From Blastocystis hominis (Eukaryota > Sar > Bigyra > Opalinata > Blastocystidae), in NCBI RefSeq assembly GCF_000151665.1, contig NW_013171866.1, positions 310,001 through 374,000 of the forward strand: a stretch of DNA of 64,000 nt, read 5' to 3'. The position numbers and the translations under genes are program-made. Below, one piece after another: positions 6,317-52,252 of the stretch. Under the pieces are notes generated by a model. It was given only the letters and a program-made list of their open reading frames with translations, searched no databases and was not told the origin of the DNA. Numbering within the stretch: the stretch's first letter is position 1; every line of letters begins with the position of its first letter.

Positions 6317-7261
6317 ATGGAGTTTTCTGGAAGAGTGGAGGATACTAGTAAGCCAAATCAACAAGAACAGAAGAGTGACGTTCTCAAAAGAATAGACGAA
6401 TTTGCGTCAATGACGTAATTAATTTGCACGATGTATAAGTTTAGTGTTGAGCAGCTCGATGATAACGCTCCAGAAACAGTAATTGGACTTATTGAGGATG
6501 CCATAGGCTACTTTGCTGCCGAGGATGTGCTCTCCCTGTCAGAGCACTTGAATAAGGACAGCAACATCTTTAAGGTAGCCGAACTCGTGATAAAGTATTG
6601 CACAATGAAGGGTGGGCACGAAGATGATATTGTTGCTCTCTTCGATAGTTTAAATCAACTTGCCACTTTTACCACCGACTTTGACCTGTGCATTCAGTAC
6701 TCCGAGCGTTTCCTGAAGGAAATGACGAATATGAATAATGAAGAAGGCATTGCCAATGCTCTTATGTGCTGTGCCAATGCCTGCAGTTCCTCTGTCTTGT
6801 CGATAGTTGCTAGTATCACAGAGGACGTTAATGATAAAGATAATGACAAGTTGCTCCAGATTGACGGAATCGAAAATCCTGTCAAGAAGGTTGAGGAGCT
6901 AGTTTCAGATTCTGTGGAGTACAGCCACCAAGCATACATTAGTCATCTAAAGCTTGCAATTCTTCAAGCAGAGTCGATGGGAATCGTGAAAAAGGGTCTT
7001 TCCACGCAACTGGACGATGAGCATCTGGTAAACACAGTAACGACGCTGAGCGATGCCCTGAACGCTATGAAAGAGAGACCCGATGAGCTGAACTACATCT
7101 ATGATCATCTGCAATACGCTCAGGAGATGAATGAAAAGTGTATGGAGTTTGATGGTCTTTCCTTCGCGGAACTGAAAGAGAAAGTGAGACATATGATGGA
7201 TGATGAGGATTGTTGCTGTGATTCGAGCTGTGAATGTCGTCATGGCGATGATGATGAAGAG

Positions 7262-7293
<32 letters not shown>

Positions 7294-7405
7294 GGAAGAA
7301 GAAGAAGAGGAAGAAGAAGAAGAGGAGGAGGAGAAAAGTAAAAGGAATAGATCGAAGAAGCGAAATCAACGTGGAGCAGCATCACAAAGCAAACGAGTGA
7401 AGCAT
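6317..7405 (+). CDS. Unrecognised protein with long poly-Glu and basic C-terminal tail; stop made by polyadenylation
   Basis: Exon 1 (6317-6414) and exon 2 (6445-7405) join across a 30-nt intron to give 353 codons. The first two thirds look alpha-helical, with repeated short helices around VEQLDDNAPETVIGLIEDA, and may be a solenoid. A Cys cluster (CCCDSSCEC) is followed by an unbroken Glu tract of about 30 residues (about 7255-7334) and a Lys/Arg tail. I do not recognise the family; a nuclear or histone-interacting role is only a guess from the acidic tail. The downstream element TGTTTATT is at 7411-7418 and T7406 is codon position 1, five bases before it. The mRNA should therefore end ...KRVKH then TAA, before the genomic TGA at 7418. 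Confidence 0.6.
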
Positions 7406-7418
7406 TGTTGTGTTTATT
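7406..7418 (+). terminator. Polyadenylation element TGTTTATT with stop-creating T
   Basis: T7406 (codon position 1), four bases, then TGTTTATT at 7411-7418. Cleavage after the T plus poly(A) would make TAA. The genomic in-frame TGA overlaps the element itself and is probably not in the mature mRNA. Confidence 0.6.
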
Positions 7419-7520
7419 GAACAAAGAACTGCAACTATTTACAAACTGACTTGTGAGCAATATCGATACAAAGCATAGGAGACACGCAATTGATCCTTCG
7501 CGCGATAAAATAAACAAACC

Positions 7521-9357
7521 CAGGTGATGAATAATCGACCTACAGTTCATCCACCAACACAACACATCTCACATTAATCACGAAATACTGATGAACTTCG
7601 TATCGCAGCATTTCCCCTTTAAACAACACATCTAATTCCGATCCTTCTTCCAACTCCGAAGGCGAATACAGCGCAATAATTTCGCTCTCTTCCGACACGA
7701 ATCCTTTCAAATACTTCTACCGATCAACACCATGCTCATCCTTCCACCTTCCCTTCTTTCTCCGCAAACTCCAACGAAAACCGAAACGTCAAGCACTGCA
7801 AGATCTCATCGCGAAGCACCGCCAAATGCTTGAAGTTCGTCACGCTCTCCTGCACCGCCAAATGCAGCGAATCCGTCGCATTCAACTCAACAACGTCCGC
7901 AGTGCGGATCGAGCAGCGATACCGATAATTGCTCTCAAACCGCGTCACTTCCAACGGCTTTCTCGCAACGATTGGCGTCGGGAGAATCTGCGAAAAGGAG
8001 TAGAACGCCTCGCAGAAGGGCTGATGCGTGTCGGTGACCTTCTCCGGAAACGAAATAATTCCGAAAATCTCGATGACCGGTGCGATCTTCAGCGTAGAAC
8101 TGCGAGGAACGAAGAGAGGAGACGAGAGATAAATGGGACGAGGCTCGGACGGCGAGGCGGGAGACGAGACAAACCGGAAAAGATTCGAGTTGCAGGTCTT
8201 CGTTTCGGACTGGATAACCATCCAAATCAGCTGGTTTCCTTCGATTTTTGACTTGATCTACCATTCAGAAAGCGAAGGAAAGCGACGCGAAGATCCGCGG
8301 GATCCGAGGAGAAGATCGAAAATGCCTCGCCCATTTGGAGAACCTGCTCGATCGAGGGGTGCACGCCGTGTTTGTCTCGAAGTTCCGAAAGCACGGTGAG
8401 ATAAACCGGGTAGTTCGCAGCCTGCACGCTCACAGAAAGCACCCAGTTCCCGTTTGCATCTTGTTTTGTGCTCAGCAAATCGACGCTGTCGGTCAGATAA
8501 CAAGCTTGGCGTTAAGAAGAGAGAGAGCTGGAAACCAGGGATCGCGAAGTCGTAATAATACACATCGCTGACCGTCGATTTGTCCACTAAAACCATCCAG
8601 AGCTGATATTCTCCACTGTTGGCGAGCGTCCCCACATAGAGAGAGGCTTCGTCTGCGAAGAGACCAGCGTAGTAGCCGCGTTGTTCGATGTCGAAGCGAG
8701 AGCGCTCGATTGGATGAGAAGTGTCGTTTGTTTTCCTCTCGATGTGGTAGAATACGTGGGAGGGGTTTGAGATGGAGCAGGAAATATAGCAAACTTCATC
8801 ATTGACTATTAGGTGAGGGTTCCAGATATGATAGTTGTTTGAACGTTCTGGAAATGAGACGATTGAGGAGGCCTACGCTTTTCGGTAGATGGCTGGTCCA
8901 AAACAAGCACCGAAGAGTGGCAATGGGATAATAACTCTTCAGCAACGAGAAAAATCTGGTAAACTCCTTGATCCCGAATACTCAGTGTGAACTCTTTTCC
9001 TTCCCTCGCAATAGTTGATTTTCCTTGCTGAATAATGCGATCTGTTGATACTTCTTGAGCTCGATAAGTTTTCAAGTAATAGATGATAGCATCACCGCCA
9101 TGAACTATGCCTGATAAGCGATAGAAATAATCATTCCAAGAAAACTCAGATACTTCGATTTCGATTCTATGCTCAGTACAGTCTATTTATTAGCAAATAC
9201 CCGATATTTTACTAATTTCATTGCGGAGCGAATAATCCAAATCTGTTCTCTGGTTTAACCTGTGATCATCGGCATTCTCTATGTATTCATTCTTCCCAAT
9301 AGTATAAATGAAAATGGGAAGAAAGTACACAATGAGAGCGTTCAAAAATAGATTCAT
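7521..9357 (-). CDS. Putative secreted or ER-lumenal protein, unrecognised
   Basis: The minus-strand ATG at 9357 is followed by a hydrophobic signal-like stretch (MNLFLNALIVYFLPIFIYTIG). Several exons of beta-rich sequence follow, separated by introns of about 30 nt: FTLSIRDQGVYQIFLVAEE near 8970, LFADEASLYVGTLANSG near 8660, and FEIFGIISFPEKV-type strands near 8090. The last exon reads through VDYSSPGFVY around 7530. The exact C-terminus is unclear: GGTTTGTT (7513-7520) and TGTTTATT (7509-7516) overlap there. I do not recognise the family. The start codon lies only four bases from the polyadenylation element of the upstream NAA38-like gene. Confidence 0.45.
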
Positions 9358-9413
9358 TTTGATCAAACAAAGAACTGACTATCTGAAAATAATCTACTTA
9401 AAAGCTTGCACCA

Positions 9414-9764
9414 CTATTCAAGTGTTTCACACTTGACAATATACTGCCCAGAAATCATCACACAACCAGCGCTTCGATGAAATTCCTTTCCTTCTTCTTC
9501 TACGAATTATTCGAATATAAAAAGTAAACCAAAATTGATATACTCTGTTGCCTGCATCAAAATAAGCCCCATCTTGTTATCCACTGCCTAGATGTTACAT
9601 ATTTGTCAAGAAGAGCCAACACTAAGATAACCAGTGAACACACGACCATCACTGATATGAACTCTTGTTTTTTTGTTCAAATACTTTCTCAGCTCAGCGC
9701 ACTTTTCCCCTCCTTCTCTTAAATAGGCATCTCTCAGTGTAAATGGTAATTGAGCTTCAGACAT
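9414..9764 (-). CDS. Lsm-domain protein, NatC auxiliary subunit NAA38/LSMD1-like
   Basis: This small gene has three exons with introns of about 30-32 nt. The spliced protein runs MSEAQLPFTLRD, LRKYLNKKTRVHISDGRVF, GYLSAVDNKMGLILMQATEY, CVMISGQYIVKCETLE, then TAG (9414-9416). This is the Sm1/Sm2 pattern (DGR-x-F-x-G, then N-x-x-L-x-x-x-E, then the G-x-x-I-V strand) as in the Lsm-like NatC subunit NAA38. That protein helps N-terminal acetylation of nascent chains; another Lsm family member is possible. The element TGTTTGAT (9362-9369, minus) is the likely polyadenylation signal, almost touching the next gene's ATG at 9357. Confidence 0.65.
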
Positions 9765-10046
9765 GTTATTCTTCAAGTGAATATAGTAAACAGTATAAGG
9801 AAGATCCGAGTTCCGCCTTAAAGAATAGGAAATATGAGAAAAATGTAATAATAATGTGTAAAGGGGCAGAATATCAATTTGCCTCCAAGACGAGGTTATT
9901 ACTATGAAAGCAGTGTCTCTAGCTTATCTGTTTGTCGATCCACAAAAATGGAGCATTCACTATTCTTTACAGCAGCAAAATAGCAGTAGCTTATTTATAG
10001 AAGAACTATAAACCGGTTTCTTATTTTCTGTAGACGTTTTCTGTTA
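9765..10046. other. Intergenic spacer, divergent promoters
   Basis: About 280 bp lie between the divergent NAA38-like and golgin-like genes. I see no conserved ORF, tRNA or repeat. It presumably holds both promoters. A TGTTTGTC at about 9930 on the plus strand has no upstream gene to end. Confidence 0.4.
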
Positions 10047-10928
10047 TGTCTAGTGTTGGAATGGTTGAAGGGAGTAACATGTAGTCAAACACCGTGGAAC
10101 AAAAGTTAGATATTGAAAATAATGCTACCTCTGCACCCATAGTAGAAGGTAACGAATAGTAGGAAAGATGAGTATTTAGAAAATGGTACAGCCGCTCTTC
10201 CGAATTCTGGAAATCAAAATTTGGAAAACCAAGCTACCGACGATATCAACGAACTTTCTGTCGATGCTATACTTCAAGACCTTTCTGATACTGATTTTGA
10301 GGAAGAAGTTCTATTTAGTGGAAATCAAGAGAACTGCCCTGATTCAAAAGATGTTGGCTCGGGAATACCACAAGAAATGCCCAAGCTTCCCGCATTGCAG
10401 CTAAAATTAGTTGATAATCCTAAATTAGTTTTAAAGATAAACGAAAACAGAGATGGCAATACGGATGGAGCAGGCGAGCCCAATGCTCAGGAAGCTGGGG
10501 ATAGGAAGGAGAGTGAAGTGGTGAATGCTGAGGAAGGAGAAGGAAGACAGAAGAAGGACGATCCAGAAGAAGTAGAACGTCGAAAAAGAACCTTGGAAGC
10601 AATTCGTCTAAAACGTCAAGAAATGTTTATGAAAACTTATCAAATTAATTCTCTTAATGCTCAGATTGCTGAACTGAATGCTCCGGTTGCGAAAGATGTC
10701 TCGAAGCTACGCAATCAAGTGGATCGCTGCTTCACCCAGTTACGAGAGTTGCAAGATGAAAGTATTCGCGTGAATGAATCGATCGAGAAGGCAGTTCAAG
10801 TGCAGCAAAAGCTGCAGGACCAGTTGGATGCCTTGGAAGAGAAGAGGAAGGAAGCGATATTTGAATTAGAGAACAAACATTTAATGCAGCTGAAGGGGAT
10901 TGAAGAGGAAATTCGACAGTTGTTGTAG
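10047..10928 (+). CDS. Coiled-coil protein, RAB6-interacting-golgin-like
   Basis: The main exon runs from about 10171 to TAG at 10926-10928. One or two short upstream exons (about 10047-10150) are joined by an intron ending TTTAG at 10170, so the start is uncertain. The N-terminal half is acidic and disordered. The C-terminal half (10570-10925) is one long coiled coil: RLKRQEMFMKTYQINSLNA, then APVAKDVSKLRNQVD, then QDQLDALEEKRKEAIFELE. The layout and the DVSKLR-type motif resemble golgin/GORAB proteins of the Golgi, but coiled coils match easily, so this is tentative. Confidence 0.4.
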
Positions 10929-10951
10929 TGTGTGTATGGGATCGTGGTTCT

Positions 10952-10966
10952 GTTTTATGAAAACAA
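10952..10966. terminator. Back-to-back polyadenylation elements of a convergent pair
   Basis: Plus TGTTTTAT (10952-10959) and minus TGTTTTCA (10966-10959) overlap by one base, forming a short inverted repeat between the golgin-like gene and the Hsp110-like gene. Both genes have encoded stops. The elements are less canonical than elsewhere. Confidence 0.4.
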
Positions 10967-10980
10967 AGCTCACCAGATCA

Positions 10981-13963: not shown

Positions 13964-14261
13964 TACAAAATTTCTGTGATGAAAAAAAGGTTAATTTTGT
14001 AGTGTTTGTTTAAAGCATCTTTCATTTTTATATACTACATCCTTAAACTTGTGAATGGATTAAAATATATTTGCATGGTAAAGAAATTACTGTTCATAAT
14101 AATTAACCTCCCCCATCTTGTCAAATTAGTTTATCATTTCTTTCAAATTGAATAAAAGTTCATTATTTTTTTAATTCTCAATGTTTTTGAACTCAGACAT
14201 ACAGGAAGGCAACTACGTAGGTGCTATACTCTGCTTTTACTGTTAGTCCTATTTGCAGAGA
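13964..14261. other. Intergenic AT-rich spacer, divergent promoters
   Basis: About 300 bp separate the Hsp110-like gene (minus) from the Mei2-like gene (plus). It contains an orphan TGTTTGTT at 14003-14010 on the plus strand with no plus-strand gene upstream. No RNA gene or repeat was seen. Confidence 0.4.
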
Positions 14262-15684
14262 ATGAATGGCTATGAAGGTGATAGAACCGTCTTCTGGAGT
14301 GACGCGTCAATCTCTTCTTCGCCTAGAACATGTATACTCTGAATTGGGAACTGACTTTTAGTAAATGACGATTTATTCAGTACTCAAGGTCACTCTCTGG
14401 AGGACCCTCTCTCGCAGAGAGTACGGGAACAGGACCTGATGTTTGCTGCGGATCAACCTAACGCTAATTTATATGTTGAGAGAAATTCACCTAACACCCC
14501 TTTCTTTTGGGAAGAATACGAAGATCCTTTCTTCCAAGAGGAGATTCTTTTGAATCCGATGTCTCCTAATAATGTTGCTACTTTTGATGATCCTAGCAAT
14601 TTGTTATATGGGAGTCGTTATGAGAGGCCTCCCTTTCCTCTTCCCACGCCTCAGTCTTTTGCTATGAGTCCATCTCCCTACACTGTTCCCCCCCATATTT
14701 ATCGGCGACCTTATCCACAGTACGAACCTCCCCGCATAGCGGAGGGATTTGTACGAACTCCCTCTCCTCGTTATGATTTTGGTATTCACTCAATGCATCA
14801 ACCTGTACCTACATCGATGCCCATGGGTACGGTTGCTCCACCTCCATCGATGCCCATGGGTACGATTGCTCCACCTCCATCATTGCCCATGGGTACGATT
14901 GCTCCACCTCCATCATTGCCCATGGGTACGATTGCTCCACCTCCATCAATGCCCATGGGTACGATTGCTCCCCCTCCATCATCGCCTGTGTCGACAATCG
15001 CTGCACCTCCATCATCGCCTGTGTCGACAACAGCTCCTCGTCCTCCTGCTCCTACTCCACTGCCACAACCCCAAGTGATGTCTATCCCATCGAGCAATAA
15101 GAAGCATAAGAAAGGCATGAACAATTACAACAAGAAGGAATTGAATGCAAGCATGTACAAGATTGACCTATATAGAACTCTTACAGGAAAGGATATGCGA
15201 ATGACCCTAATGATCCGAAACATCCCCAACGGGTATTGATTGTTGTTAGTAATACTAATCATTCAGCTTTACGAGAACGAAACTGCTCAGATATTTGGAC
15301 GGGTTTGTAAAGAACAAATACGACTTTTTGTATTTGCCTGTGGATTCCATCTCGTTAAGCAATCTCGGTTTCGCTTACATTTCAATGATTAATCTCAAAA
15401 GCGTGGAAACTATATACAATGAGGTATGCGATAAGAAAAAGGATTGACCTTGTAGATGCATGGAAAAAGATGGAAGGACACGTTCAGCATGAAGGTGTGC
15501 CAGATTGTTTATGCAAGAATGCAGGTAGGAATTGGAAAAGAGGTTTGATAGATAGGGGAAACTAGCGATGAAGCGACTATGCAAGGACTGGAGTGTGATG
15601 CAGCTCCCTGAAGAATATCATCCTATCTTTTTTAAGCCGATTATTGATGAAAGGGGGCATACAGTAATGATTGTTGAAGATATT
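14262..15684 (+). CDS. Mei2-like RNA-binding protein; stop made by polyadenylation
   Basis: The start ATG at 14262 opens MNGYEGDRTVFW; a 30-nt intron (14332-14361) restores frame into the long exon. The N-terminal half is disordered and Pro-rich, with a 33-nt tandem repeat (about 14812-15035). The C-terminal half is the Mei2-type RRM: LMIRNIPNGF, KNKYDFLYLPVD, NLGFAYISM, MHGKRWKD, VCQIVYARMQGK, YHPIFF. These match the conserved C-terminal RRM of Mei2 proteins, which bind non-coding RNA in meiotic or growth regulation in other eukaryotes. T15685 (codon position 1) is five bases before TGTTTGTT (15690-15697), so the protein ends ...MIVEDI. Confidence 0.8.
14812..15035 (+). repeat. 33-nt coding minisatellite in the Mei2-like gene
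   Basis: About seven copies of a 33-nt unit encode the 11-residue repeat S-x-PMGTIAPPP. The last two copies diverge to SSPVST-type units. Copies are nearly identical, which suggests recent expansion and likely length polymorphism. Confidence 0.8.
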
Positions 15685-15697
15685 TTGTGTGTTTGTT
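15685..15697 (+). terminator. Polyadenylation element with stop-creating T (Mei2-like gene)
   Basis: T15685, four bases, TGTTTGTT at 15690-15697. The T is codon position 1 of the Mei2-like frame, giving TAA after poly(A) addition. Confidence 0.75.
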
Positions 15698-15731
15698 GAT
15701 AGACTTCGCGCATATTTCCTCAAAGAAAAAG

Positions 15732-16570: not shown

Positions 16571-16736
16571 TAGAACCCTCATTTACAGACATGCTACGAT
16601 TTAGGAGCATCAAAGGCCTTTTGTTGGCGAGAATAAAAATTGGGTATCGTTATGTTTACTAAAAAAACGGAAAAAAGAGTACATGTCAAGGGCGTTTCGG
16701 CATTTGCATTTTTGAAAATAATAATTAATCGTTAGA

Positions 16737-17717
16737 ATGGAAACTATCTTGGTTACTGGTGGAACTGGCTTAGTCGGAAGAGGTATTCAGTTGGCCCTTG
16801 AAAGAATGAAGGAGAATGGAAAGAGAGAGAATGAAAACTGGGTTTTCCTGAGCTCCAAGGACTGCGACCTTTTGTAGTGCTATTACTGTTTCATGATATT
16901 TAGAGACCGTGAAGCATCCCGTGCTGTTTTTGAAAAATACAAGCCTGCTTATGTGATTCACCTGGCTGCTAAGGTCGGAGGTCTGTTCAATAACATGGCC
17001 CACAAGGTGGAGTTTTACAATGATAACATTATCATGAACATGAACGTGATGGAGTTGTGCCGTGAGTTCAAGGTGAAGAAGCTCATTTCTTGTCTTTCTA
17101 CGTGCATCTTCCCTGACAAGACGACCTACCCCATCGATGAAACCATGATTCATACGGGTCCTCCACACTATTCCAACGAAGGATACGCCTACGCCAAGCG
17201 TATGATCGAGGTGATGGATCGTCTGTATGCTGAGGAATACGGATGCCACTTCACCGCCATCGTGCCCACCAACATCTACGGTCCTTATGATAACTACGAG
17301 ATTGAAGGTGGCCACGTCGTTCCCGGTCTGATCCACAAGTTCTACAAGGCCAAGCAAACCGGCGAGCCTGTGTGTGTCTGGGGTTCTGGCAAGCCTCTGC
17401 GCCAGTTCATCTACAACGTCGATATGGGAGAGCTGATTGTGTGGGTGCTCCGTGAGTACGAGGAGATCGCGCCCATCATTCTGTCCGTTGGAGAGGATGA
17501 GGAGGTGTCGATCGGTGATGTGGTGAACTACATTGCGGATGCGATCGATTACCACAATATCGAGTACGACCATACCAAGGCGGACGGACAGTTCAAGAAG
17601 ACGGCTTCGAATGCCAAGCTGCGAAAGTACCTGCCTGATTTCAAGTTCACTCCGATGAAGGAGGGAATTAAGGAGACTGTGGACTGGTTCGTGGCGAACT
17701 ATGATACTGCCCGAAAG
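16737..17717 (+). CDS. GFUS: GDP-L-fucose synthase; stop made by polyadenylation
   Basis: Exons 16737-16873 and 16904-17717 join across a 30-nt intron to 317 codons, the normal family length. The short-chain-dehydrogenase fold is clear: N-terminal [11 protein letters not shown] Rossmann motif, [10 protein letters not shown], catalytic Ser in LSTCIFP, YAYAKRM carrying the Tyr and Lys of the triad, [16 protein letters not shown], and the C-terminal ANYDTARK. The enzyme epimerises and reduces GDP-4-keto-6-deoxy-mannose to GDP-L-fucose in the cytosol. No stop follows ...TARK. T17718 in codon position 1 lies five bases before TGTTTGTT (17723-17730), and the family's usual C-terminus ends exactly there. 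Confidence 0.95.
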
Positions 17718-17730
17718 TGGATTGTTTGTT
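17718..17730 (+). terminator. Polyadenylation element with stop-creating T (GFUS)
   Basis: T17718, four bases, TGTTTGTT at 17723-17730. The conserved GFUS C-terminus ends at the codon before this T, the cleanest family-based support for a stop made by polyadenylation in this window. Confidence 0.9.
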
Positions 17731-19850: not shown

Positions 19851-21395
19851 ATGGAAAAGGGATGGAGGACAGCCTGGAGCAAAAAGGAGAACGCGTATTA
19901 CTATTGGAATGAGAGTACACATGAGACACTTTGGAAGGTGGAGTGTCCAGAAGATTGGTGGGCCAAAAAACTAATAAAAGGAAGTGATTCCAGTGTTTCC
20001 TGGATCTATGTAAACCTAAAAACCGGACGCGAGCTCCATTCGAAATCCCAGTTTACAGAATACATCAATTCTCTTGGTGGAAGCCATGCGCCCAATCCGT
20101 ATCTGCAATAGCTAACAACTGATCTGTAGTCAACCGAAGACGGAGACGAACGCTTTCGGAACGGCTATTCAAGACAAAGGCAATAAGAATGTAGAAAATT
20201 CAGATGGATTTGTCTCCATGTCATTAAAGAGGGAAGCCGATAATGGAGACGAATTTGTATCCATGTCTTCGAAGATGATACAGTACAATGGCGTAGTCAA
20301 TAACTACAACAAGGAAGACAAGACAATAGAACAACGAAATCAGTCCTCCACACTTCATCTCCGCAAACTAGACAATTGGGTAAAGCTCTACTTAATTCAG
20401 GAATACTGCAGAAACTGCAAGAGAGTCTTGGATCTAGCTTGTGGCAAAGGAGGAGATCTTCAGAAGTGGAGAGAGCATAACATTAAGGATTATGTCGGAG
20501 TCGATATAGCCGACCGTTCCATTGCTGATGCAGTTGTTCGGTTTAAGAATATGAAAAACCCAGAGTTTTGTGCTCGTTTCGTTGTGGCGAACATCGGTCA
20601 AATCAATCTGACGGACGTTTTGCAGCAAGTACTCTCCTCTCTGTCCCTCCTATTATTCACTAGGGAGAGATGTTTGACATTATAAGTTGCCAGTTTGCAC
20701 TTCATTATATGTTCGAGTCGGAAGTAGCATTCTCTGCAGTCTCTCCTTCCCTAGGCGATGATTCGAAACTTTCTTAGCAACGTCAGTCTTTTTCTCAAGC
20801 CTGGCGCTGCGTTCGTAGCCACTCTGTGCGATTGCGATGCGATCGTGCGGTGCTTTCGATGTCTAGCGCATCGCGAAGGCGAGGAATGGGTGTGGAGAGT
20901 GAGCCGTCGCAACGACTTTACGAATAGAACTCCATCTGCTGCATTGCCATTGATCAGGAAAACTACGAAAAAATCGATCATATCGATGAGAATCCGTATG
21001 GTATTCGCTACAGCTTCACTCTGGCCGAGTCGGTGGATGATGTTCCGGAATACCTCTCGCCATTGTCGTGTATCGAATCGCTTTGCGAAGAATACGGACT
21101 TGTCGTGGAAAAGAAAGTGAACTTCAATGTAGCAATGAGGGAGCGTTGTTATGGGTAGGAGTACATTCAGAACAGCCTCAAGACAAATGACGATCGGACC
21201 AAGTTTTCGAGTATGGGAGTGCCGAACATCAATGGGGTTATTAGCAGGGACGAAGTGGATGTCGCTCTGCTCTATTGCGTGTTGGTTTTGCGACAGCCCA
21301 ACAACGATGAGGACCTAATGGACGATGTAAGCGATGAGGTGCTTGGGAAATCGAATCGGGACATCTCAGAGCAAGATATTATTAATGCAATGAAT
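19851..21395 (+). CDS. WW domain fused to mRNA cap guanine-N7 methyltransferase; stop made by polyadenylation
   Basis: The ATG at 19851 opens MEKGWRTAWSKKENAYYYWN, a WW domain (W...YYYWN...ETLW). A 31-nt intron leads in frame (GSHAPNPQPKTE) into the cap methyltransferase: FVSMSSKMIQYNGVVNNYN, VLDLACGKGGDLQKW (SAM-binding motif I), YVGVDIADRSI, FDIISCQFALHYMFES, FLKPGAAFVATLCDCD, NPYGIRYSFTL, and a C-terminal SRDEVDVALLYCVLVL. All joins use introns of 30-38 nt. N7-methylation of the cap is essential for mRNA. T21396 (codon position 1) is five bases before TGTTTGTT (21401-21408), so the protein ends ...DIINAMN. Confidence 0.85.
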
Positions 21396-21408
21396 TCGAG
21401 TGTTTGTT
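21396..21408 (+). terminator. Polyadenylation element with stop-creating T (cap methyltransferase)
   Basis: T21396, four bases, TGTTTGTT at 21401-21408. It lies only 31 bp before the tRNA-Lys gene. Confidence 0.75.
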
Positions 21409-21438: not shown

Positions 21439-21511
21439 GCCCGTCTAGCTCAGTCGGTAGAGCGCCAGGCTCTTAACCTGGTGGTCGGGGGTTCGAGCCC
21501 CCCGGTGGGCG
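21439..21511 (+). tRNA. tRNA-Lys (anticodon CUU)
   Basis: The 73-nt cloverleaf folds fully: 7-bp acceptor stem with two G-U pairs, D-arm GCUC/GAGC, anticodon stem CCAGG/CCUGG with loop CUCUUAA, 5-nt variable loop, T-arm GGGGG/CCCCC with UUCGAGC, discriminator G. There is no intron and no encoded CCA. A T-rich run just downstream (from 21513) fits a Pol III terminator. It sits between two convergent protein genes. Confidence 0.97.
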
Positions 21512-27434: not shown

Positions 27435-28085
27435 ATGTCCATTCAAGGTAACGATCCTTCATATCAATTGTCCGCAGATTACTCTAGTTCCTCTCGAAGT
27501 AGGTCGTTTTGAAAATGGATGATCGAATTAGATAGCAAACGTTGCTACGTCTGTAATGGCATAGGCCATATCGCAGCCCAATGTCCATCTCGCTTCACAC
27601 TCAAATCATCGTCTCATAGTTCCAACGGTGGATACTATTTCCGAGGAAATACGAAATACCCAGGTCGCGACAAAATACCGTACTCCCACAACAATTCTAG
27701 TTTTCAAGCAGTACAGTGTTACATTTGCGGAAAGAAGGGGCACCTGGCGAGAGATTGCCGAAACAAACTGTCGAGCTATTCCACCTATAAGCCATCATCC
27801 TCGGGCATTCGAAGCACGCGTCCCTACTGGTAGACTTTAATCATCCCAACGTCATGCGTCAGTCTGAACTGCCACAAAGAAGGTCATTTGGTGAAAGACT
27901 GTCCGGAAGGCAAAATCTGCCGTCGTTGCGGCGAAGTGGGTCATATCGCCGCGGATTGCTGCAATGCCGTGCGGTGCAACCGCTGTTACCAAGAAGGCCA
28001 CTTCGCCAAGGACTGTCCGAACGCCGTGGTGTGCAGCGTTTGCAATCAAAGCGGACACCGAAGCGACTGCTGTCCCAACCGCCAA
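27435..28085 (+). CDS. CCHC zinc-knuckle protein (CNBP/Gis2-like); stop made by polyadenylation
   Basis: Four exons with introns of about 30-34 nt give MSIQDYSSSSRNSKRCYVCNG and then six CX2CX4HX4C-type knuckles: CYVCNGIGHIAAQC, CYICGKKGHLARDC, CLNCHKEGHLVKDC, CRRCGEVGHIAADC, CNRCYQEGHFAKDC, and a final CSVCNQSGHRSDCC. Such proteins bind single-stranded RNA or DNA and often regulate translation. T28086 in codon position 1 lies five bases before TGTTTGTT (28091-28098), so the protein ends ...CCPNRQ. It converges on the amino-acid transporter. Confidence 0.85.
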
Positions 28086-28113
28086 TGCTTTGTTTGTTCG
28101 ATCAAACACAGGA
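28086..28113. terminator. Paired inverted polyadenylation elements, both creating stops
   Basis: Plus T28086 and TGTTTGTT (28091-28098); minus T28113 and TGTTTGAT (28108-28101). Both Ts are codon position 1 of their own genes, so both stops are made after transcription. The two mRNAs would end about 27 bp apart, with both downstream signals between them. Confidence 0.8.
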
Positions 28114-29541
28114 ATGGAACACCGAGAGACACGTCATCGCCGTGGTTCCGATCATCACGAGCACGCCCAGCACGACCAGAACTAAATCGACATACCAGCT
28201 TCCCTTGCTGTGGTTGGGCAGAATCTTCATGTGCAGCAAGGGCGGCAAGATAAACGACACGATCGAGATCGTGAAGCATCCAAGTTCGATTAAGGCTCCC
28301 TTTTTTTTCTCTGTTCCTATCGCTGCTCTCTCCACAGCGCCCGCTCCAAAGGATATTGAAAGACACCACCGCTTTGAAATTGGGGATGAAATACGCGAGC
28401 AAACACGTCACCACCACCACGCCCAATCGCTGCAGCACGCGCCGCCAGTCCGTCACCATCACCTTGCTCTCTCCGCCGTCGATCCAGGCCTCCAGCGCGA
28501 TCAGAGCGGGGTAGACGGCGATGGGGTAGGAGAGGAAGCACACCAGCGAGAGGCCGATCGCGGAGATCACGTAGAACCAGGAGCTCGATGGGATGTTCGA
28601 CAGAATCAGGTCCTTGATGCCTTCTGCATGTTAGACAGGAGAAACGGGGAAACCGGGGGCGTTGGCGTAGAAGATGACGCCGCAGACGGCGAAGAGGATG
28701 TAGACGATGCCGGGGATGACGAGAGAGACGACGAGAGCGTTCTCGAAGCGAGAAGGGTTCTGCATGCTGGCCTGGCGGTCAAAGAGGGCGAAGAAAATTT
28801 ACGCGGGAGGAGAGACTGACGAAGGCGACGCCCATGGAGAAGCAAATCACGCCGAACATGTTGGCGATCTCGAGATAGTCGGAGGGCCAGAGCATGGCGA
28901 CGGCGAAGCTGGGCTTGTTGTGGAGGATTCCGTAGAGAATCACGCAGACCATCACGAAGAGCAGAATGTAATTGCCTGCCTGCGAGGCGAACGAAATCGC
29001 GCTCATGGTGCGCAGCAGAACCAACGGGTAGATGCACACGCCGAAGGCGATCGTCCAGAAGAGGATGTTCTTGCCCCATTTGAAGTTGAAGACTTCCCAA
29101 TGGAGGTCCGACAGCAACTGGTTGAAGGTAATCTGGTACGCGGCACCGACACCGATCAGGGTGACGATGAAAGAGAAATTGAGGAGGAAGACGCCGAACT
29201 TGCCGAGTCCCTACGATAAACTCGTTAAAACAGAGATACCTTTCTGGCTACAATCTTGTAGGGGTCATCGTTCGACGGAAGCAGAGTCAGAAGGGTAACC
29301 TCGTTCACTTGGATCAGCAGTTTCATGCAGTAGTAAACCCAAAAGGCAATTAGAGCAACTAAGAGAGTAGCGCTAACAAAACCAGTCTAAAGCTTATCCC
29401 AGCATTCAAAAACACACATGGAGAGTCGTAATGGGGAGGGCGAGAATACCGACTCCCATACAAGTCTTAATCAGATTTCCTGTTGTCTATGGATTACCAC
29501 GCACATCTCGATCTCAGTACCTGAGAAAAAGTGGCGGACAT
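28114..29541 (-). CDS. Amino-acid transporter of the AAAP (SLC36/SLC38) type
   Basis: The ATG at 29541 opens MSATFSQ, and an intron leads to TTGNLIKTCMGVGILALPITT, the typical first helix of AAAP permeases. Several hydrophobic helices follow: TGFVSATLLVALIAFWVYYC, ILLFVMVCVILYGIL, ANMFGVICFSMGVAFV, LVVSLVIPGIVYILFAVCGVIFY, FYVISAIGLSLVCFLSYPIAVYPALIAL. Introns are about 30-40 nt. The last exon ends ...CLSVFH, with T28113 in codon position 1 five bases before TGTTTGAT; a genomic TGA follows at 28102-28104. Substrate and membrane cannot be told from sequence. Confidence 0.8.
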
Positions 29542-36105: not shown

Positions 36106-36274
36106 TCTGTGGTTGCAAGTGTAGGAGAAGGAAAGGGGAAACAGGGAAACGCCGAGGTTCGATTGAACGGACGATGGAACCTTCCCAACTTCCTATATTC
36201 ACCATCTGGTTATAAATAGAACCAGGAAGCAATAAAAAGCCAGGTACGGGGAAAATAAGTCATTGTTTGTCTTA

Positions 36275-37709
36275 TGCCTGGCTGGGAATTGATCGTTGGG
36301 TGTGTAGGAAAGCCCTCTGCTGGAAAATCGACGTTTTTTAATGCAGTAACCGATGGTTCGGCAAAAGTACGAGTTTGGAAGTATTCAGTGATGGAACTAG
36401 GTGGGAAACTATCCGTTCACAACAATTGAACCAAATACAGGTATTACGTACTATATGACCGATTGTCCTTGTAAAACGAAGGGACTCAGCAAAGAATGTC
36501 ATCCCCTATATGGCTTCTGCAAAGATGGTCAACGCCAAATTCCTTTGAAGCTGCTGGATGTCGCAGGACTCATTCCAGGAGCTAGTGAAGGTGCAGGTTT
36601 GGGAAACAAGGTATTGATATAGATTTTCGCTGATTATCTGTCTAGTTCCTCGATGATTTGCGTCATGCTCATGTTTTGGTGCATATCGTGGATGTCTCGG
36701 GGAGAACAAACGAAAAGGGAGAGAACACAGTGGGATACGACCCGTCTCGCGTAGGTCTTGAGAGCAGGCTCGACTGTAGGACATCGACTGGCTCTACGAC
36801 GAGATCCACGCCTGGATCTTCAACAACATTTACAAAAAATGGAGTGGGATCATCCGCAAGTACAGCACGTTCTGCAACAGCGAGAAGCCCAAAGGTCTTG
36901 CGGAGCTCTTGCAGCTGCAGCTTTCCGGCTACGGAACGACTCCCTCGCAGAGTGCAGCGATCGTCCGCTACCTGAACCTGAAAGAGCCAGTCGACCTAAA
37001 CAGCTGGAGCGCAGATGATGTGCATCGCCTGGTCGATGCCTTCATGTACATCCGCTTTCCGATCGTGGTGGCGCTGAACAAGGCGGACTGCAAGGGAAAG
37101 ACGGACGACAACATCCTCAAGATCATGAAGCGGTACAACAAAGACAACGTCGATTGGAAGTCGAGGGACCATTTGAAGGTCCGCGACATCGTCGTGATCT
37201 CCGCGGCCTCCGAGTGTTTCCTCAAGAAACTCGCTGCGCAGAAGTATATCACGTACAACCGCGGGGATACGATGTTTTTAACGCGGGAAGACGAGATGGA
37301 GGCGACGGGGAAAAGCGTAGCGGTTTGCGTGGTTTGGGATGCGTAGAAACTGAAGAAAATCGACGCCACGGTGTCGGACCGGCTGGAGAAGATCATGGAC
37401 ATGGTGCTGTTTCGGTATGGATCGACGGGAGTGTGGAATGTTGTGACTTCCGCGGTTAAATGCATGAATCCGACGATTGTGTACCCGGTGACCTCGATGA
37501 CGACGTATAAGGGACCGCGAGGAGGCGTGTTCTCGACGTGTTATGTGCTGCATCAGCACGCCACGGTGGAGGATCTGCGAATGTTGCTGGTGAATGCGGA
37601 GAATATTCCGTGCGTGTCGATTGAGGCTGCGGATGGAAGGGTGATGGGAGAGGAGGACGAGATTGAGAACAACTCGATTGTAAAGATTAACACGCGTAGT
37701 AACGTTGAT
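36275..37709 (+). CDS. Obg/YchF-family GTPase, Ygr210-type; stop made by polyadenylation
   Basis: Exons joined across introns of 29-36 nt give [27 protein letters not shown] (P-loop G1), [11 protein letters not shown] (G2), [25 protein letters not shown] (G3 DxxG), ALNKADC (G4 NKxD), and the C-terminal [20 protein letters not shown] (TGS-like). The length and the insertion between G3 and G4 fit the archaeal/eukaryotic Ygr210 branch rather than OLA1. Ribosome- or translation-linked roles are known for the family. T37710 (codon position 1) precedes TGTTTGTT (37715-37722) by five bases, so the protein ends ...NTRSNVD. Confidence 0.85.
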
Positions 37710-37722
37710 TTTAGTGTTTGTT
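37710..37722 (+). terminator. Polyadenylation element with stop-creating T (GTPase)
   Basis: T37710, four bases, TGTTTGTT at 37715-37722. Without it the frame would run on into an unconserved SVCYIKG tail. Confidence 0.75.
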
Positions 37723-42571: not shown

Positions 42572-42598
42572 TTGTGTGAATATTGCTTTGTTTGTTTT

Positions 42599-42982
42599 AT
42601 GAACTTTTAAAAAATCGACTGCAGGGTCGAATAATGGACATGACAAATGTTTGAAATGGAAAAGATATTTTTTTGTGCATTGTACCGCATATCCTATGAC
42701 AAAATTAAATAGTAGGATAATAATGAGAGTCTAGGTATTTAAAACAAATAGTAGAAACGTGGTTTCGAAAATGTCTCCGAAAATAAAAACCAGAGGTGTC
42801 ACGGCAGAATTTGGAACATATAACACACAAATTTGTAATATAAATTTCTATTAACAATTGAGCACCCGAATGATTCAAATATTTTATCGTGGAACCCATG
42901 AACCACATTCTCCAAATTCATAATTCCATAAGTTATTGGTACAAGAAGGTATGGTGAAATCTAGAATAGTTCATTCTCTAGA
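42599..42982. other. AT-rich intergenic region
   Basis: About 380 bp between the tandem formin and transporter genes. A minus-strand open stretch (42908-42705, several Cys and His) is not convincing as a gene. Probably a promoter. Confidence 0.35.
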
Positions 42983-44104: not shown

Positions 44105-44137
44105 TGGTAGTGTTGCGTTTGTTAGAAACACGTTTGG

Positions 44138-47100: not shown

Positions 47101-48423
47101 GTACATGATGACGTACACGTTGTATTTCCAGAATAGCGATGTGGATTACTGGAAATACGTGCTGGGCGGGTTTGTGGGCGAGGTTTTTGTATTGTGCGGT
47201 TGTGGAGAGTGAGGCGTAGGGGCGATTTATGCTCTATCCGACCTATCTGAGCTCGTTTTCGCGCCTGGTCGAACGGGATATTCGACCCATTTCTTTAGTG
47301 AACGTTCTTCGAGGCAAATCGACCGCGTCCAAAGCGGTTCAGCCGCCCTCAATTCCCCCACCCGCTTCACTCAAAACCCCATCGAACTCTTTCTCTTCTT
47401 CTTCATCAATAACAACAACAACAAAGCCCACAAAACCCACAAAACCTTCCACATCGCCCATCATCATCAAAGATTCGCGCGTTCGTTCCACTCCCAAACC
47501 TTCCTCGTCTCCTCCACTTCTTTCCACGGACCCATCCATCAACACAAAACCCGATCTCATCAAACCAAAACCCGATCTCATCAAACCCGTCAATCAACTC
47601 ATCGGGGGATTCGGGCGTTATTTCTTCATGCTTCTTCTCGAACGATCCATCCAGCTCATTTCCTTCCCCTACGTTCCCTCCACGCTTTCCACGTTACCTC
47701 TAGTTCCTCCGATCCCTCACAGACCACGAAATAACCGCGGATCTCCCGCTGTGGTCGCAAACCTTTTTAGCCGGAGGTCTGGTTGGTGCCTCCATTTCCG
47801 TGCTGCGCTATCCCTTGGAGCGCCACTATCTTCGCCACATGTTTCTTTTACACCCTTTCACATCACGTTTAGTTTAGGAATTCCAAAAGAAACGGGGATT
47901 TCGTTGATTCGTCGGTTGTATGGCGGTTGGGGCGCTGCGTTGCTCCATTCCACGCTCTTTAACGCTCTGTTCTTAGGCGGCTTCGCTCTGATTTGGCGCC
48001 AAATGAATGCTTCGTTTGCGCGGGATTTGGGCCTTCATTTGGCGGCAGCGCACCCGCGGGACGAACGCAATAGCCAGGAGTTTCCGGTGCATTATGAGCT
48101 GTTCGGCAAGGGGATTATTGGGATTTCGTGTGCTTGTGCTGCTACTCAGCTTGTTTGTTATCCGATTGGGGTGTATCGGAATATGAGGTAGGGACAGAGA
48201 AGAGATGATGATCAGAATGTTGGCGACCTTCAACAAACCATCGCTATCGCCGCTGTTGAAGCAAAGCGCATCGATTCGAAGCTTTTTCTGCAAGGCAAAT
48301 CGCGCCGCTCTGTACGGAGGAATGTGGACGCGTGTGTGCTGGTCGGTATTGAGCTGTTCGATGGGAATAGCGTTTGGTTCGGCGCTTCTCACGAAGGATT
48401 ATCGAAACAAGTCGAAGTATTAG
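44138..48423 (+). CDS. Permuted-papain-like hydrolase + two CNBDs + mitochondrial-carrier-like domain
   Basis: Reading across introns of 28-37 nt gives one open protein. The first domain is a YiiX/YebB-type permuted NlpC/P60 fold: NDLDTGDILLFSRR, catalytic-type His in FSPWDHICVVV, ALEAALDGVR, GKPYMS, and Cys in AFFCSHSVAVVLRSLGVL. A Glu- and Asn-rich linker leads to two cyclic-nucleotide-binding domains (45430-45830; 45890-46270: MRHHPVFSRFSAKELTEISLFFHKVKL, GKIPAYVIYVDEGTV). A helical region follows, then a divergent six-helix carrier (WKYVLGGFVGEGRFMLYPTY, GGLVGASISVLRYPLERHY, TQLVCYPIGMMIRML). TAG is at 48421-48423 and twin TGTTTGTT elements are at 48439-48450. The join at 45579 is a 28-nt intron in an open frame. 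I know of no such architecture elsewhere. Confidence 0.6.
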
Positions 48424-48438
48424 AATTCCATATAATTG

Positions 48439-48450
48439 TGTTTGTTTGTT
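48439..48450 (+). terminator. Overlapping double TGTTTGTT
   Basis: Two octamers overlap by four bases (48439-48446 and 48443-48450), 16 nt after the encoded TAG. Confidence 0.7.
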
Positions 48451-48477
48451 GTTCAAACGAGGCTTTGACGTGCCGAG

Positions 48478-48827
48478 ATGAGTAACAAGAAGTACCCTAG
48501 TCCAGACATGGTAAAACCGCACCGCTGTGCATTTCTTATGGATAACCTGTTTGACGCAATGCATCCATGGAACACGAGCGAACTAAGGATTGCGTACCAT
48601 GCTTTCCGTGATTGTTTGAAGAACGAAGAAATAAATGCAGATCTCTCGCAGAAACCAAAATATTTAACGCCCAAGCCGGAGTACGAAGGTACCATGAAAA
48701 TAGATTGGTCAATTTCGTAGACATGTTTGATTCCGAGAAACTCAAGGAAAAAGCGGACCAGGCGAGAGCTCAGGAGAAGCTCCGACGAGAGAGCTTCAAG
48801 AGAGACAAGACGAAAGATCAGGATTGA
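48478..48827 (+). CDS. Small unrecognised protein
   Basis: The ATG at 48478 opens MSNKKYPSPDMVKPHRCAFL; a 31-nt intron (GTACC...TAG, after PKPEYE) leads to MFDSEKLKEKADQARAQEK and a basic tail ending KTKDQD, TGA. About 105 residues with two conserved-looking Cys (HRCAFL, FRDCLK). It might be a small organellar assembly factor, but I do not recognise it. It starts only 28 bp after the double octamer of the preceding gene. Confidence 0.45.
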
Positions 48828-48913
48828 ACAGGTGAGCAAGTGGCTTGTGCTATGTAATTGGTTTTTTTATTTCGTTCCCTCTGTTTGATCTGTACTAATG
48901 AACTTGCACTTGG

Positions 48914-50626
48914 GATGAGTGTTGTTGATTTGTATCTCAGTTCAACTGTCACGCTTCCCAGCATTTCGATCCGGTAGTTTACTGTCTGCACAGAACAAAA
49001 GGACGTTTCGTGGACGATCTTCGCATGAAAACCTGATTCGCGAAGCAAAGGGATCATTCATGGAAATCATGTTAATCACAAAAATATCCATGGATATTAA
49101 TCAATCCATTCCCGTTTTGCAGAGCGCGCCTCGCACATCAACCGATAGCTCGCAAACGGCTCTAACAACAAACAGCAATGAGACTGTTGATTGCTCTACA
49201 ACGCGTAGTGATTCTCTCCAACGGGGAGCATCCCTTTCGATGAACCCTCTGTTGTCTTTGTCTCTGTCCCGCGGGTTTCTCTCCTGCCTATCAGGAAAAT
49301 CGGACACGTTTAATCTCTTTCCGAGTCTTCGTCTGGATGAAATGACAGCAGACGATTCGCAATCGCTTCAATTCTGTCTACAGCAAGTAGACCAGGAGCT
49401 TCAGCCGCTGCAGCAAAGACAGTCCAAAATGCCTTCTCTTCCTATGGACGAGTTCACATTTCAGCTCTCTCCGAGGAACGAGCAGGAGTCAGACGATCCG
49501 TTTCTTGTGAATTTGTTTCTCTCTCCTTCAGATCGTGGCTTTTCTGAACTAAAAGGGTCTCTGTCGATTAGCAGACATCCCTCTCTTTCTTTTGCTACAA
49601 ATTTCGAGAAACCGGAAGCTGCACATGGCCCTCTCTCGAGTGGTTGGATTCGGAATGTGACTGCATCTGTGATCCAATCAAACAATGAGCAGCCTTGTAA
49701 TCCCAACGCCAAATTGCCTTTTTCTGGAACAAATGCCGTTCCGATGTTTGATACTCCTTTCATTCCTTGCGCCACGGATACGGAGTCGGATGGAAATCCG
49801 TATTCCGGATCAATGTCCGACCTGTCTTCCTTTGACGACACAATCCAAAAGAAACAGTCCACGAAAAACCGAAAAAAGTGGATTTGCTCCAATTGTCGCT
49901 ATTACAACAACCTGAGTTTGCCTCCGATCTGGGATTCATCATAGAGACGAAGCGCTGCCTGAACTGTGGGAATCCATCTCCTTACCAATCCCAGCACTCC
50001 AAAGACTATCCCAACTCCCCCATCCCATCGATGGAGGTAATGAACCAACTGGCGCTCAACTCCAATCAAATCAACCTAGATATTGATGTAGGTGGAGGAT
50101 ATACGCTGCGTGACTTCCCTTTTGCCTACCTTCCCTCCATTCCTTCAGGAGATAGTTCGGAAGCCGCTCTGAAACTTGTAGATGATGAGTGTGGTGTGTG
50201 TGAAAATAGCTGGCTCTGCGCTCGAGAAAGTCGGAGCCGAGAATCTGTGCTCGGTGTGGAAGTACCAACACTCCGAAGTGGAGACGCTCACCTCCTCCCA
50301 TGCGGTTTCTGCTCTGCAATGCATGCGGTTTGCAATACAGTAAAGGGATCAATGAGCACACGCACTCCATTTCTCCTCTTGAGGAATGTCAAGTATGTGT
50401 TATATAGAAATGGAGAGAGTGTAATATAGGGAGAATATTGTGTCCGCGCTCGAGCAGAAGGAAGAAACATCAAGCGTAGACTGTTCAACAGACATATCCT
50501 AAGTGTTGTCAATGTGCCTTCTTAACGCCAGGATTGCGTCTGTGCTATTATTGCAATAGGTTGCGAAGACAATCACTCAACATAAATGAGCAAAAGGCAG
50601 AAATCACAAACAAAAATCTGTGTTAA
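48914..50626 (+). CDS. GATA-type zinc-finger protein
   Basis: The N-terminal two thirds (from about 48914; exact start and first exons uncertain) are Ser/Gln-rich and disordered. Zinc-finger pieces follow: WICSNCRYYNNL near 49880, KRCLNCGNPSP near 49955, a clear GATA core ICARCGSTNTPKWRRSPPP with LLCNACGLQYSKG near 50235-50350, and a shortened CCQCAFLTPGLRLCYYCNRLRR near 50515. The order suggests several GATA-related fingers, of which the third is canonical. Probably a transcription factor. Ends about 50626 (TAA). Confidence 0.6.
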
Positions 50627-50680
50627 TCATTTACATTTTTTATGTTTCATAATTAAATTTGGAGGTTTGTTGCATACTGA

Positions 50681-52225
50681 ATGAATATCCCGACATGTAT
50701 TATCAATGTTTCAGAGCTCGATATATCTGTTTGCTACGTGGAAGGAAATGACTTGTTTCGCATTAATATGAGTCAAACAGAATATCTCCTGAAGGGAACT
50801 GTCTCATTCGGTAAAAATAAGGACATATTTTTAAATGCTCTCCCATCACAGGACGATTTGGGAACAGTCAAGAATTTCTTCAGATATCCTGGTAGAACAT
50901 ACCGTGAAATCTATGACAACTTCAATCTCAAAGAAGACCTCATTAATGTTCGTCTTCTGGATTATGTGGATGGACCGTGTTTTGTTGTCAATGAGGAGTA
51001 CAGCATGTCTGTCATTTCTGTATTTGAGTATATATTAACACATGTAGTGAAGACTATTTTTTCGTATCATCGTACATTTTACAAGTTTGTTGTATGTGTT
51101 CCTCGTTTCTTTGGTGAAACAGAATTCAACATCATCAAGCAGTGCTTTAATGAGATGCAAGTAGTCCCCAATATTATTCACGATTATACTGCTATCGTGT
51201 CAAGTATGATTCATAAAGAGACGCTCTCGGGTCAGAAGAGTTATTATGCATTGATCCACTCGAAGTACTTCAGTACCGATTATCTGATTATTCAAGTTCA
51301 ATATCAAAATGGCATACCTGTCCTTTCTGTGTTAGAGCACCGAGAACTAATGAACGTTTCAATAGAAGCGCTCAAAAGGCATGCTCAGGAGCTGTTTCGG
51401 AAGCGATGGATGATGAGTATGGATAAAGGAAAGGTGCCCGATGGAGTGTCTTTCAGTCTGGACGATGATTTTTGGACAAAGCGGGAAGATGTGGTGTATG
51501 TACATGCAATCATTGGGAACAAAGGCTCGGGGGAATACCGAATGAAATTGGAATCTTGGATGATCGAGATGTTTTTACGCCAGTGCGGCTATGCCTCTCT
51601 ATTCCTAACGAACCGCATGCTTGATACTTGCGGAATCGATTTCAAAAATGCTACGATTTTGGTGGCTGGATTGTTCCTCCAGTCGGATTCCTTCCTTGTG
51701 GACCGCAATGTCTTTGCGCTAGAGAACCAAATCAAGTTGTTGGATGTTGCGAATTACTTGGTTTGGGGGAGTGAGAACGCGCTCTCTCTGCGAATTGTCG
51801 AACAAACGAATACCACCTTGCTCCCTGTTAGTATCTGGTTCTATTCCAGTGCGAATAGCATCCGATTGCTTCTCGAAAAGGGCACGTTGCTTCCGAACTC
51901 GAGTGGCGCCGCGTTTATCCCCAAGCTGAAAAGCGGCGTGGAGCCTGTGCGGACCGAAAACGCGAGCCAATCTTTGGGAACAATGAAGTTTGCGCTGGTG
52001 ACTAGCGAGCAGAGCGGCGACGAAGCCCGACGTGTGGTCGAGGAGGGAGAGGGGAAAGTGATTCTCAACGGGGAGATGAAGTACAGTCCGGATAGCAAAG
52101 AGGAGAATAACAACGTGTTCTACATGCATCTCACCGTCACTCAGGACTTCGAATTGGATTTCACGGTGAATCACCTCACAAAGAACAATATGGTCTTCCA
52201 GCATCGAGCTCAGCTCTCTTTTTCG
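50681..52225 (+). CDS. Divergent Hsp70-superfamily protein; stop made by polyadenylation
   Basis: The ATG at 50681 opens MNIPTCIINVSELDISVCYVE, aligned with the start of an Hsp70 nucleotide-binding domain but lacking GIDLGT. The order of features continues: FYKFVVCVPRFFGETEFNIIKQCFNEM (AVITVPAYF position), YALIHSKYFSTDYLIIQVQYQNG (DLGGGTFD position), ILVAGLFLQSDSFLV (VGGSTRIP position), then a beta-rich part like the substrate domain. Active-site residues are degenerate. It is a single exon of 515 codons; T52226 (codon position 1) is five bases before TGTTTCTT (52231-52238). The open frame runs on to 53776, but that extension is antisense to the pyrophosphorylase gene and is not coding. Confidence 0.6.
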
Positions 52226-52252
52226 TTCTCTGTTTCTTCAACAAACACGCAA
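52226..52252. terminator. Paired inverted polyadenylation elements, both creating stops
   Basis: Plus T52226 with TGTTTCTT (52231-52238), minus T52252 with TGTTTGTT (52247-52240); a single base separates the two elements. Both genes lack a conserved encoded stop. Confidence 0.75.

Follow-up and report, generated by a model that had tools for sequence, protein, structure and literature searches.

Back-to-back octamers as a putative bidirectional polyadenylation signal between convergent genes of Blastocystis hominis

INTRODUCTION

Polyadenylation is known to create stop codons in Blastocystis. From expressed sequence tag (EST) ends of subtype 7 (ST7), Klimes et al. (2014) reported poly(A)-created stops in 372 of 2,419 genes (15%), 359 of them UAA and 13 UGA, and placed the octamer TGTTTGTT, allowing up to two substitutions, precisely four nucleotides past 2,333 of the 2,419 sites (PMC4159000). 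Gentekaki et al. (2017) reported such stops in 1,693 genes (26%) of ST1 (PMC5608401). Cleavage at this offset is precise in both subtypes, as judged from ESTs in ST7 (PMC4159000) and from RNA-seq in ST1 (PMC5608401), and a preference for T at Blastocystis cleavage sites is also given in PMC4360255. The output of a reporter fell 324-fold once the octamer and two nearby Ts were mutated (PMC6395660), and in ST4 there are overlapping gene models that an octamer would separate (PMC5608401). Here we analyzed a 64,000-nucleotide stretch of Blastocystis hominis (contig NW_013171866.1, positions 310,001 to 374,000 of the forward strand; here called the window) and the octamers of the whole 18.7-Mb genome. 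We describe nine gene ends that seem to depend on polyadenylation for their stop codons and a dyad, in which two octamers stand back to back between convergent genes.

The initial annotation of the window had proposed the nine ends and had stated that such stops are known in Blastocystis, which both papers bear out (PMC4159000, PMC5608401). The nine sites share with ST7 and ST1 the octamer, the four-nucleotide spacing, and a T in codon position 1 that would be completed to TAA (PMC4159000, PMC5608401), and these genes add members to a phenomenon already published for Blastocystis. The back-to-back octamers are a feature of this genome, of which the main texts of those two papers give no description. 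We found no description of the dyad in the Blastocystis or poly(A)-signal literature that we searched (open-licence papers without their supplements), which is not proof of absence. The poly(A)-made stops themselves are known; the mirror-image dyad signal between convergent genes appears to be new. We think it likely that several hundred convergent gene pairs share TGTTTGTT-N(0-3)-AACAAACA, most commonly with a 2-bp spacer, and that it fixes both poly(A) sites at once. The coding regions of such pairs, in some cases both without encoded stops, would lie as little as 24 to 27 bp apart, with only two poly(A) signals between them.

RESULTS

Octamers stand back to back in the convergent orientation

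We modeled genes by chaining exons across short GT-AG introns (28 to 37 nt in the parts used); some models are partial. In the window, two convergent gene pairs exemplify the TGTTTGTT-N(0-3)-AACAAACA dyad. Positions are those of the window.

27519..28085, plus strand: gene 5, CCHC zinc-knuckle protein, 178 aa, two predicted exons; T at 28086
28091..28108: dyad TGTTTGTT-CG-ATCAAACA (spacer 2) between convergent genes 5 and 6; 26 bp between the predicted cleavage positions 28086 (plus) and 28113 (minus)
28114..29541, minus strand: gene 6, amino-acid transporter (Aa_trans, E 4.2e-50), 412 aa, start inferred from exons; T at 28113
50681..52225, plus strand: gene 8, 515 aa, unknown family; T at 52226
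52231..52247: dyad TGTTTCTT-C-AACAAACA (spacer 1); 25 bp between the predicted cleavage positions 52226 (plus) and 52252 (minus)
52253..53662, minus strand: gene 9, UDP-sugar pyrophosphorylase, C-terminal 450 aa, three predicted exons; T at 52252; in-frame TGA four codons downstream

The in-frame TGA of gene 6, three codons downstream, lies inside its TGTTTGAT octamer. The frame of gene 8 stays open for 516 further codons, antisense to gene 9. An ATG open reading frame (ORF) of 1,031 aa (50681-53776) is an artefact, the first half of which is a gene and the remainder the antisense of the UDP-sugar pyrophosphorylase gene.

We counted octamer pairs in 264 kb, made up of the window and 200 kb of contig C1 (C1:100001-300000). 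Allowing up to one mismatch per octamer, we found 22 convergent pairs within 40 bp, 10 of them at spacers 0 to 2, and no divergent pair at spacers 0 to 2. Genome-wide, the exact octamer occurs 7,304 times (3,601 on the plus and 3,703 on the minus strand), and exact dyads with spacers of 0, 1, 2, and 3 number 8, 17, 19, and 5. Removal of two microsatellite cases among the 19 leaves 47, compared with about 3 expected (about 0.7 per spacer, from the strand-wise octamer counts). Exact pairs within 0 to 30 bp were convergent in 81 cases and divergent in 10; at least 11 of the 81 come from two microsatellites, a lower bound taken from the 50 of these pairs that were listed. At spacers 4 to 30 there were 32 exact convergent pairs (at least 9 of them microsatellite) versus about 19 expected. 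With up to two mismatches, dyads at spacers 0, 1, 2, 3, and 8 numbered 172, 249, 373, 236, and 76, versus 26, 56, 14, 69, and 43 for the same pattern written backwards; those at spacers 0 to 3 total 1,030, background included.

Two side observations concern repeated DNA. The divergent spacer-2 pattern occurs at 53 places, and 28 of the 50 matches listed are one sequence, AACAAACAAATGATAGTT on either strand; it is found on many contigs and probably belongs to a repeat family. Two pairs of dyads, L032/L042 (contigs C2/C34) and L036/L040 (C7/C24), have near-identical flanks on different contigs, suggesting recent segmental duplications. Segmental duplications have been reported for ST7 (PMC3129679).

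Both dyad arms carry gene-end signatures

We examined the predicted cleavage position, five bases before the octamer, on both sides of two sets of dyads. The first set was taken from the 42 exact dyads that have spacers 0 to 2 and lie outside the two microsatellites; it contained 40 of them, or 38 once two duplicates were dropped. We found T at 56 of its 76 ends and at both ends in 21 of the 38 dyads; at single octamers, T was present at 46/80 sites on the upstream side and 23/80 on the mirrored downstream side. Frames of at least 80 codons ended at 48/76 dyad ends, compared with 36/80 upstream and 10/80 mirrored positions at single octamers. The second set was drawn from the 47 dyads with the variant TCTTTGTT in a single arm and comprised 40 of them. 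T was present at 27/40 variant-arm and 28/40 consensus-arm ends, and frames of at least 60 codons ended at 25/40 and 28/40 of them, respectively, versus 16/80 mirrored positions. With the two sets pooled, T was found at 111 of 156 ends versus 23 of 80 mirrored controls. Orientation, cleavage base, and gene-end signatures all place a signal in both orientations between convergent genes, as a bidirectional site would have it. Judged from sequence, the dyad is well supported as a putative compact bidirectional poly(A) element between such genes.

Among genome-wide dyads of spacers 0 to 3, those with TCTTTGTT in both arms (one case) fell below the number expected from independence, which is about 12; a dyad may need one consensus arm or more.

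One perfect dyad (L029) separates two recognizable genes. On its left is an ATM-like kinase in which the codon before the T pairs with the final residue of ATM (3056/3056) and which covers positions 3 to 32 of the 32 in FATC; this gene has no encoded stop at that point. The gene on its right specifies an EamA-family protein and does have an encoded stop. L029 was the only dyad with good Pfam matches on both sides when we scanned 19 of the 26 flank peptides from 13 dyads with frames of at least 80 codons on both sides; 8 peptides were above the Pfam cut-off, 8 had no match, and 3 matched weakly.

Poly(A)-made stops seemed to be enriched at dyads (28/76 versus 10/80, p 0.0007; mirrored, 6/80). 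We set this aside because a stricter test of the frames gave an ambiguous result. Among T ends whose frame spans at least 40 codons, the T lay in codon position 1 in 33, position 2 in 26, and position 3 in 17, a spread that weighs against relying on the enrichment. A codon-usage score was too weak for orienting the neighbors of octamers, leaving 54 of 95 sites unclassified. Several octamers in the 264 kb, classed as lying between same-strand genes, are followed by an ATG no more than about 20 bases away. This may hint at a next gene with almost no 5' leader, given that the classification is weak and chance is possible.

Nine gene ends fit stop codons made by polyadenylation

We located all nine Ts of the initial annotation, at 7406, 15685, 17718, 21396, 28086, 37710, and 52226 on the plus strand and at 28113 and 52252 on the minus strand, and at each the octamer starts at T+5. 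The octamer is an exact TGTTTGTT at six sites (plus strand, 15690, 17723, 21401, 28091, and 37715; minus strand, 52247) and has a single substitution at three (7411, TGTTTATT; 52231, TGTTTCTT; 28108 on the minus strand, TGTTTGAT). The features other than those listed above are as follows.

6431..7405, plus strand: gene 1, single exon, 325 aa, unknown family; T at 7406; in-frame TGA four codons downstream
7411..7427: octamer pair at gene 1, TGTTTATT at 7411-7418 and the opposite AACAAAGA at 7420-7427, spacer 1
14262..15684, plus strand: gene 2, RRM_2 (Mei2-type) protein, E 3e-23, 432 aa, five predicted exons; T at 15685
15690-15697, plus strand: octamer of gene 2; in-frame TGA four codons downstream of the codon of T 15685
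16737..17717, plus strand: gene 3, GDP-L-fucose synthase (GFUS), 317 aa, two predicted exons; T at 17718; octamer at 17723-17730
20130..21395, plus strand: gene 4, C-terminal part, mRNA cap guanine-N7 methyltransferase, E 6.9e-69; T at 21396; octamer at 21401-21408
36274..37709, plus strand: gene 7, YGR210-like Obg GTPase, 438 aa, five predicted exons; T at 37710; octamer at 37715-37722

At the 7411 pair, the opposite cleavage position (7432) is not T on its own strand, and an opposite gene end is not established. The chained 988-aa model at 21396 (gene 4) and the initial 1,491-aa model at 28113 (gene 6) are probably fusions; for both, the C-terminal parts alone were used. Pfam families were matched for seven of the nine genes and for neither of those at 7406 and 52226. 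A tRNA-Lys (CTT) gene at 21439-21511 starts 43 bases past the predicted cleavage position of the cap methyltransferase gene.

Read with the T as the first base of a codon, all nine ends have an open frame upstream, with a last uninterrupted stretch of 37 to 515 codons. All nine thus have, as the predicted last base, a T in codon position 1 behind an open frame; a poly(A)-made stop could equally start from TA or TG in positions 1-2. The published Blastocystis geometry, in which cleavage falls four nucleotides before the octamer, is matched at every one of them, in line with the initial annotation. The claim that these genes have no genomic stop codon needs a correction: at five the next in-frame stop is 12, 15, 30, 55, or 516 codons away, but at 7406, 15685, 28113, and 52252 an in-frame TGA lies three to four codons past the T codon, and there the claim depends on the predicted cleavage. 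On the geometry and frames, the reading of the nine ends as poly(A)-made stops is supported.

The T had also been presented as a hallmark of stop-less genes, the corresponding base being said to vary in genes with an encoded stop. It does vary there, and T is still the most frequent base, at 26/49 encoded-stop ends with single octamers and 21/35 with dyads. The T is a mark of cleavage sites in general and not only of stop-less genes.

We compared the octamer geometry with chance using the 100 nonoverlapping exact octamers of the 264 kb. The base five upstream was T in 61 of 100, over a background of 27%. At offset 5, 20 of 100 sites had a T as the first base of a codon behind an open frame of 40 codons or more, compared with 0 to 13 (mean, 6.6) at the other 23 offsets. 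For octamers with one mismatch (381 sites) the peak was weak, with 37 at offset 5 versus 16 to 33 elsewhere, which makes the sites at 7406, 28113, and 52226 individually less secure. Those at 28113 and 52226 are better supported, because each sits in a dyad with an exact opposite octamer. We also considered a fail-safe stop just behind the octamer and rejected it: GA follows the octamer in 2/20 stop-less candidates and 11/77 others, with no enrichment.

Protein C termini at the predicted ends

The initial annotation had placed the conserved GFUS C terminus exactly at the codon before the T, and the alignment agrees: the last residue pairs with the last residue of 4e5y (275/275 to 321/321), which we take to be human GDP-L-fucose synthase. 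A GFUS homologue at 94% identity has the same terminal residue and may, since it terminates there, have an encoded stop. The closest named relative among the 120 matches listed was that of Blastocystis sp. Blastoise (73%). This similarity, the octamer, and predicted introns near 30 nt fit a Blastocystis lineage.

Elsewhere the alignments stop a few residues short, which also fits the predicted ends. In the transporter gene at 28113, residue 406/412 reaches position 408/410 of Pfam Aa_trans, and the alignment ends 6 residues before the T. The alignment of the UDP-sugar pyrophosphorylase (52252) ends at its residue 441/450, 9 residues before the T, and there reaches position 599 in a relative of 600 residues. 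A weak match (E 0.0006) takes residue 115/121 of the last exon of the Obg-like GTPase (37710) to residue 393/397, 6 residues before the T. The single unnamed homologue of gene 1 (7406; 57% identity) differs at its C terminus and is uninformative on the end. The protein at 52226 has two unnamed relatives. One, P0121, ends near the same place without an extension, and the other, P0122 (49% identity), extends 20 alignment columns beyond the end of the window protein. The P0122 peptide SSVWQQT can be back-translated with TGTTTGGCAACAAAC, and it may, given the degeneracy of the code, reflect naive ORF calling through a similar octamer and dyad.

DISCUSSION

We propose that the 3'-end machinery reads UGUUUGUU in the transcript and would cleave five bases before the start of the octamer (four spacer bases), preferably after U. 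If such a U opens a codon, addition of the tail would make UAA and no encoded stop would be needed. With the cleavage position set by the octamer, 3' untranslated regions could therefore shrink to nothing. Between convergent genes, octamers placed back to back, 0 to 3 bp apart, would form a near-palindrome of 16 to 19 bp that provides a separate poly(A) signal for each strand. Only 24 to 27 bp would then separate the cleavage sites, and the intervening DNA would be nearly all poly(A) signal. A CstF64-like protein would bind UGUUUGUU on the transcript from either strand. Traits of the known Blastocystis system include a short CstF64 with no more than RRM and hinge and the lack of a conserved upstream element such as AAUAAA. 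In this genome, we found an open frame of 141 codons, part of a candidate CstF64-like gene, that has partial RRM_1 and CSTF2_hinge matches and ends soon after the hinge. Taken together, we consider it very probable that cleavage is set by the octamer, that the tail completes UAA, and that the back-to-back octamers act as bidirectional signals; cleavage at the nine sites and use of both arms in vivo are what the geometry would predict.

Some observations weigh against this model. Genome-wide, the single octamer (7,304) does not greatly outnumber its backwards pattern (5,456). The backwards octamer is an imperfect control because the motif is matched with a one-base shift, and divergent orientation and mirrored flanks were therefore added as controls. 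The backwards forms of two divergent patterns exceed the patterns themselves (19 versus 10 and 152 versus 53), because what these backwards forms match is convergent dyads in a shifted register. T is not in excess at single TCTTTGTT octamers (5/19, 26%), unlike in dyads. At 26 dyad ends crossed by their longest frame (at least 100 codons), T is in position 1 in 12, position 2 in 8, and position 3 in 2, with another base in 4; this frame test is ambiguous and gives a poor estimate of how many dyad ends have poly(A)-made stops. Finally, four of the nine sites have an in-frame TGA three to four codons downstream of the T codon, so the absence of a genomic stop there hinges on the predicted cleavage. 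These TGAs are what one would see if the genes used ordinary encoded stops a few codons on and the octamer were a generic, imprecise downstream element. We regard that explanation as very unlikely. The other five sites have no near stop (12 to 516 codons), and GFUS and the ATM-like gene terminate exactly at the family C terminus. GA after the octamer, which would give TGA, is no more common in stop-less candidates (2/20) than in others (11/77), and cleavage in other Blastocystis is known from published ESTs and RNA-seq to fall precisely at this offset.

The dyad could also be an RNA or DNA hairpin at the 3' end of a single gene, with selection on the pairing of the arms and not on two signals. 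Perfect palindromes are indeed common (47 exact, spacers 0 to 3, two microsatellites excluded), and a fold of -6.0 kcal/mol (z, -2.4) is predicted for the 28086/28113 dyad. Folds are weak at the 52226/52252 dyad (-0.4 kcal/mol) and the 7411 dyad (-1.2 kcal/mol), however, and the GFUS site, which has no dyad, still folds at -4.2 kcal/mol (z, -2.5). We rejected the hairpin as a selected feature because, for the variant tested, the arms do not covary: 47 dyads have TCTTTGTT in a single arm and only 1 has the compensated change in both, where about 12 would be expected under independent arm variation. Arm pairing is thus seemingly not what is kept. With T at the cleavage position and frames ending on both sides, we judge a hairpin very unlikely. 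An account compatible with bidirectional use is that dyads are a by-product of compaction, convergent genes having drifted together until their octamers touched, with no selection on the unit. The excess of exact pairs is limited to spacers 0 to 3 (47 versus about 3), which looks like a packing limit, and spacers 4 to 30 hold 32 pairs (at least 9 microsatellite) against about 19 expected; arm substitutions are also independent or nearly so. The spacer mode of 2 and not 0 (172, 249, 373, and 236 at spacers 0 to 3) speaks against a by-product, although the size of a footprint could account for it, and selection and by-product are hard to tell apart without variation data. We consider this account a real possibility that falls a little short of probable.

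If back-to-back octamers do serve both strands, the dyad shows how far convergent eukaryotic genes can be compressed when one short motif at a fixed distance sets cleavage. It would also provide a sequence-only rule for splitting fused Blastocystis gene models, such as the 1,031-aa ORF at 50681-53776, and make the mechanism of octamer recognition testable on both strands of a single element of 16 to 19 bp.

Mitochondrial mRNAs likewise receive one or two As of UAA from the poly(A) tail (PMC4159000). Those stops are organellar, unlike the genes described here. No octamer is known at such mitochondrial stops. Convergent genes of budding yeast share terminators with palindromic features, and a model predicts overlap for over 40% of them (PMC3875857). 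The features of the yeast bidirectional sites are Hrp1 sites and A/T content, and the two strands are offset from each other by about 90 bp (PMC3875857); a dyad provides one octamer per strand, at a fixed offset, and the octamers abut at 0 to 3 bp. In Arabidopsis, the opposing transcripts of convergent genes, sense and antisense, terminate within a common region, and such signals were expected to be palindromic (PMC3032780). That report covers three gene pairs with overlapping transcripts, two of which showed an effect, and defines no motif (PMC3032780), whereas the predicted transcripts at the dyads do not overlap. The yeast and Arabidopsis arrangements are related to the Blastocystis dyad.

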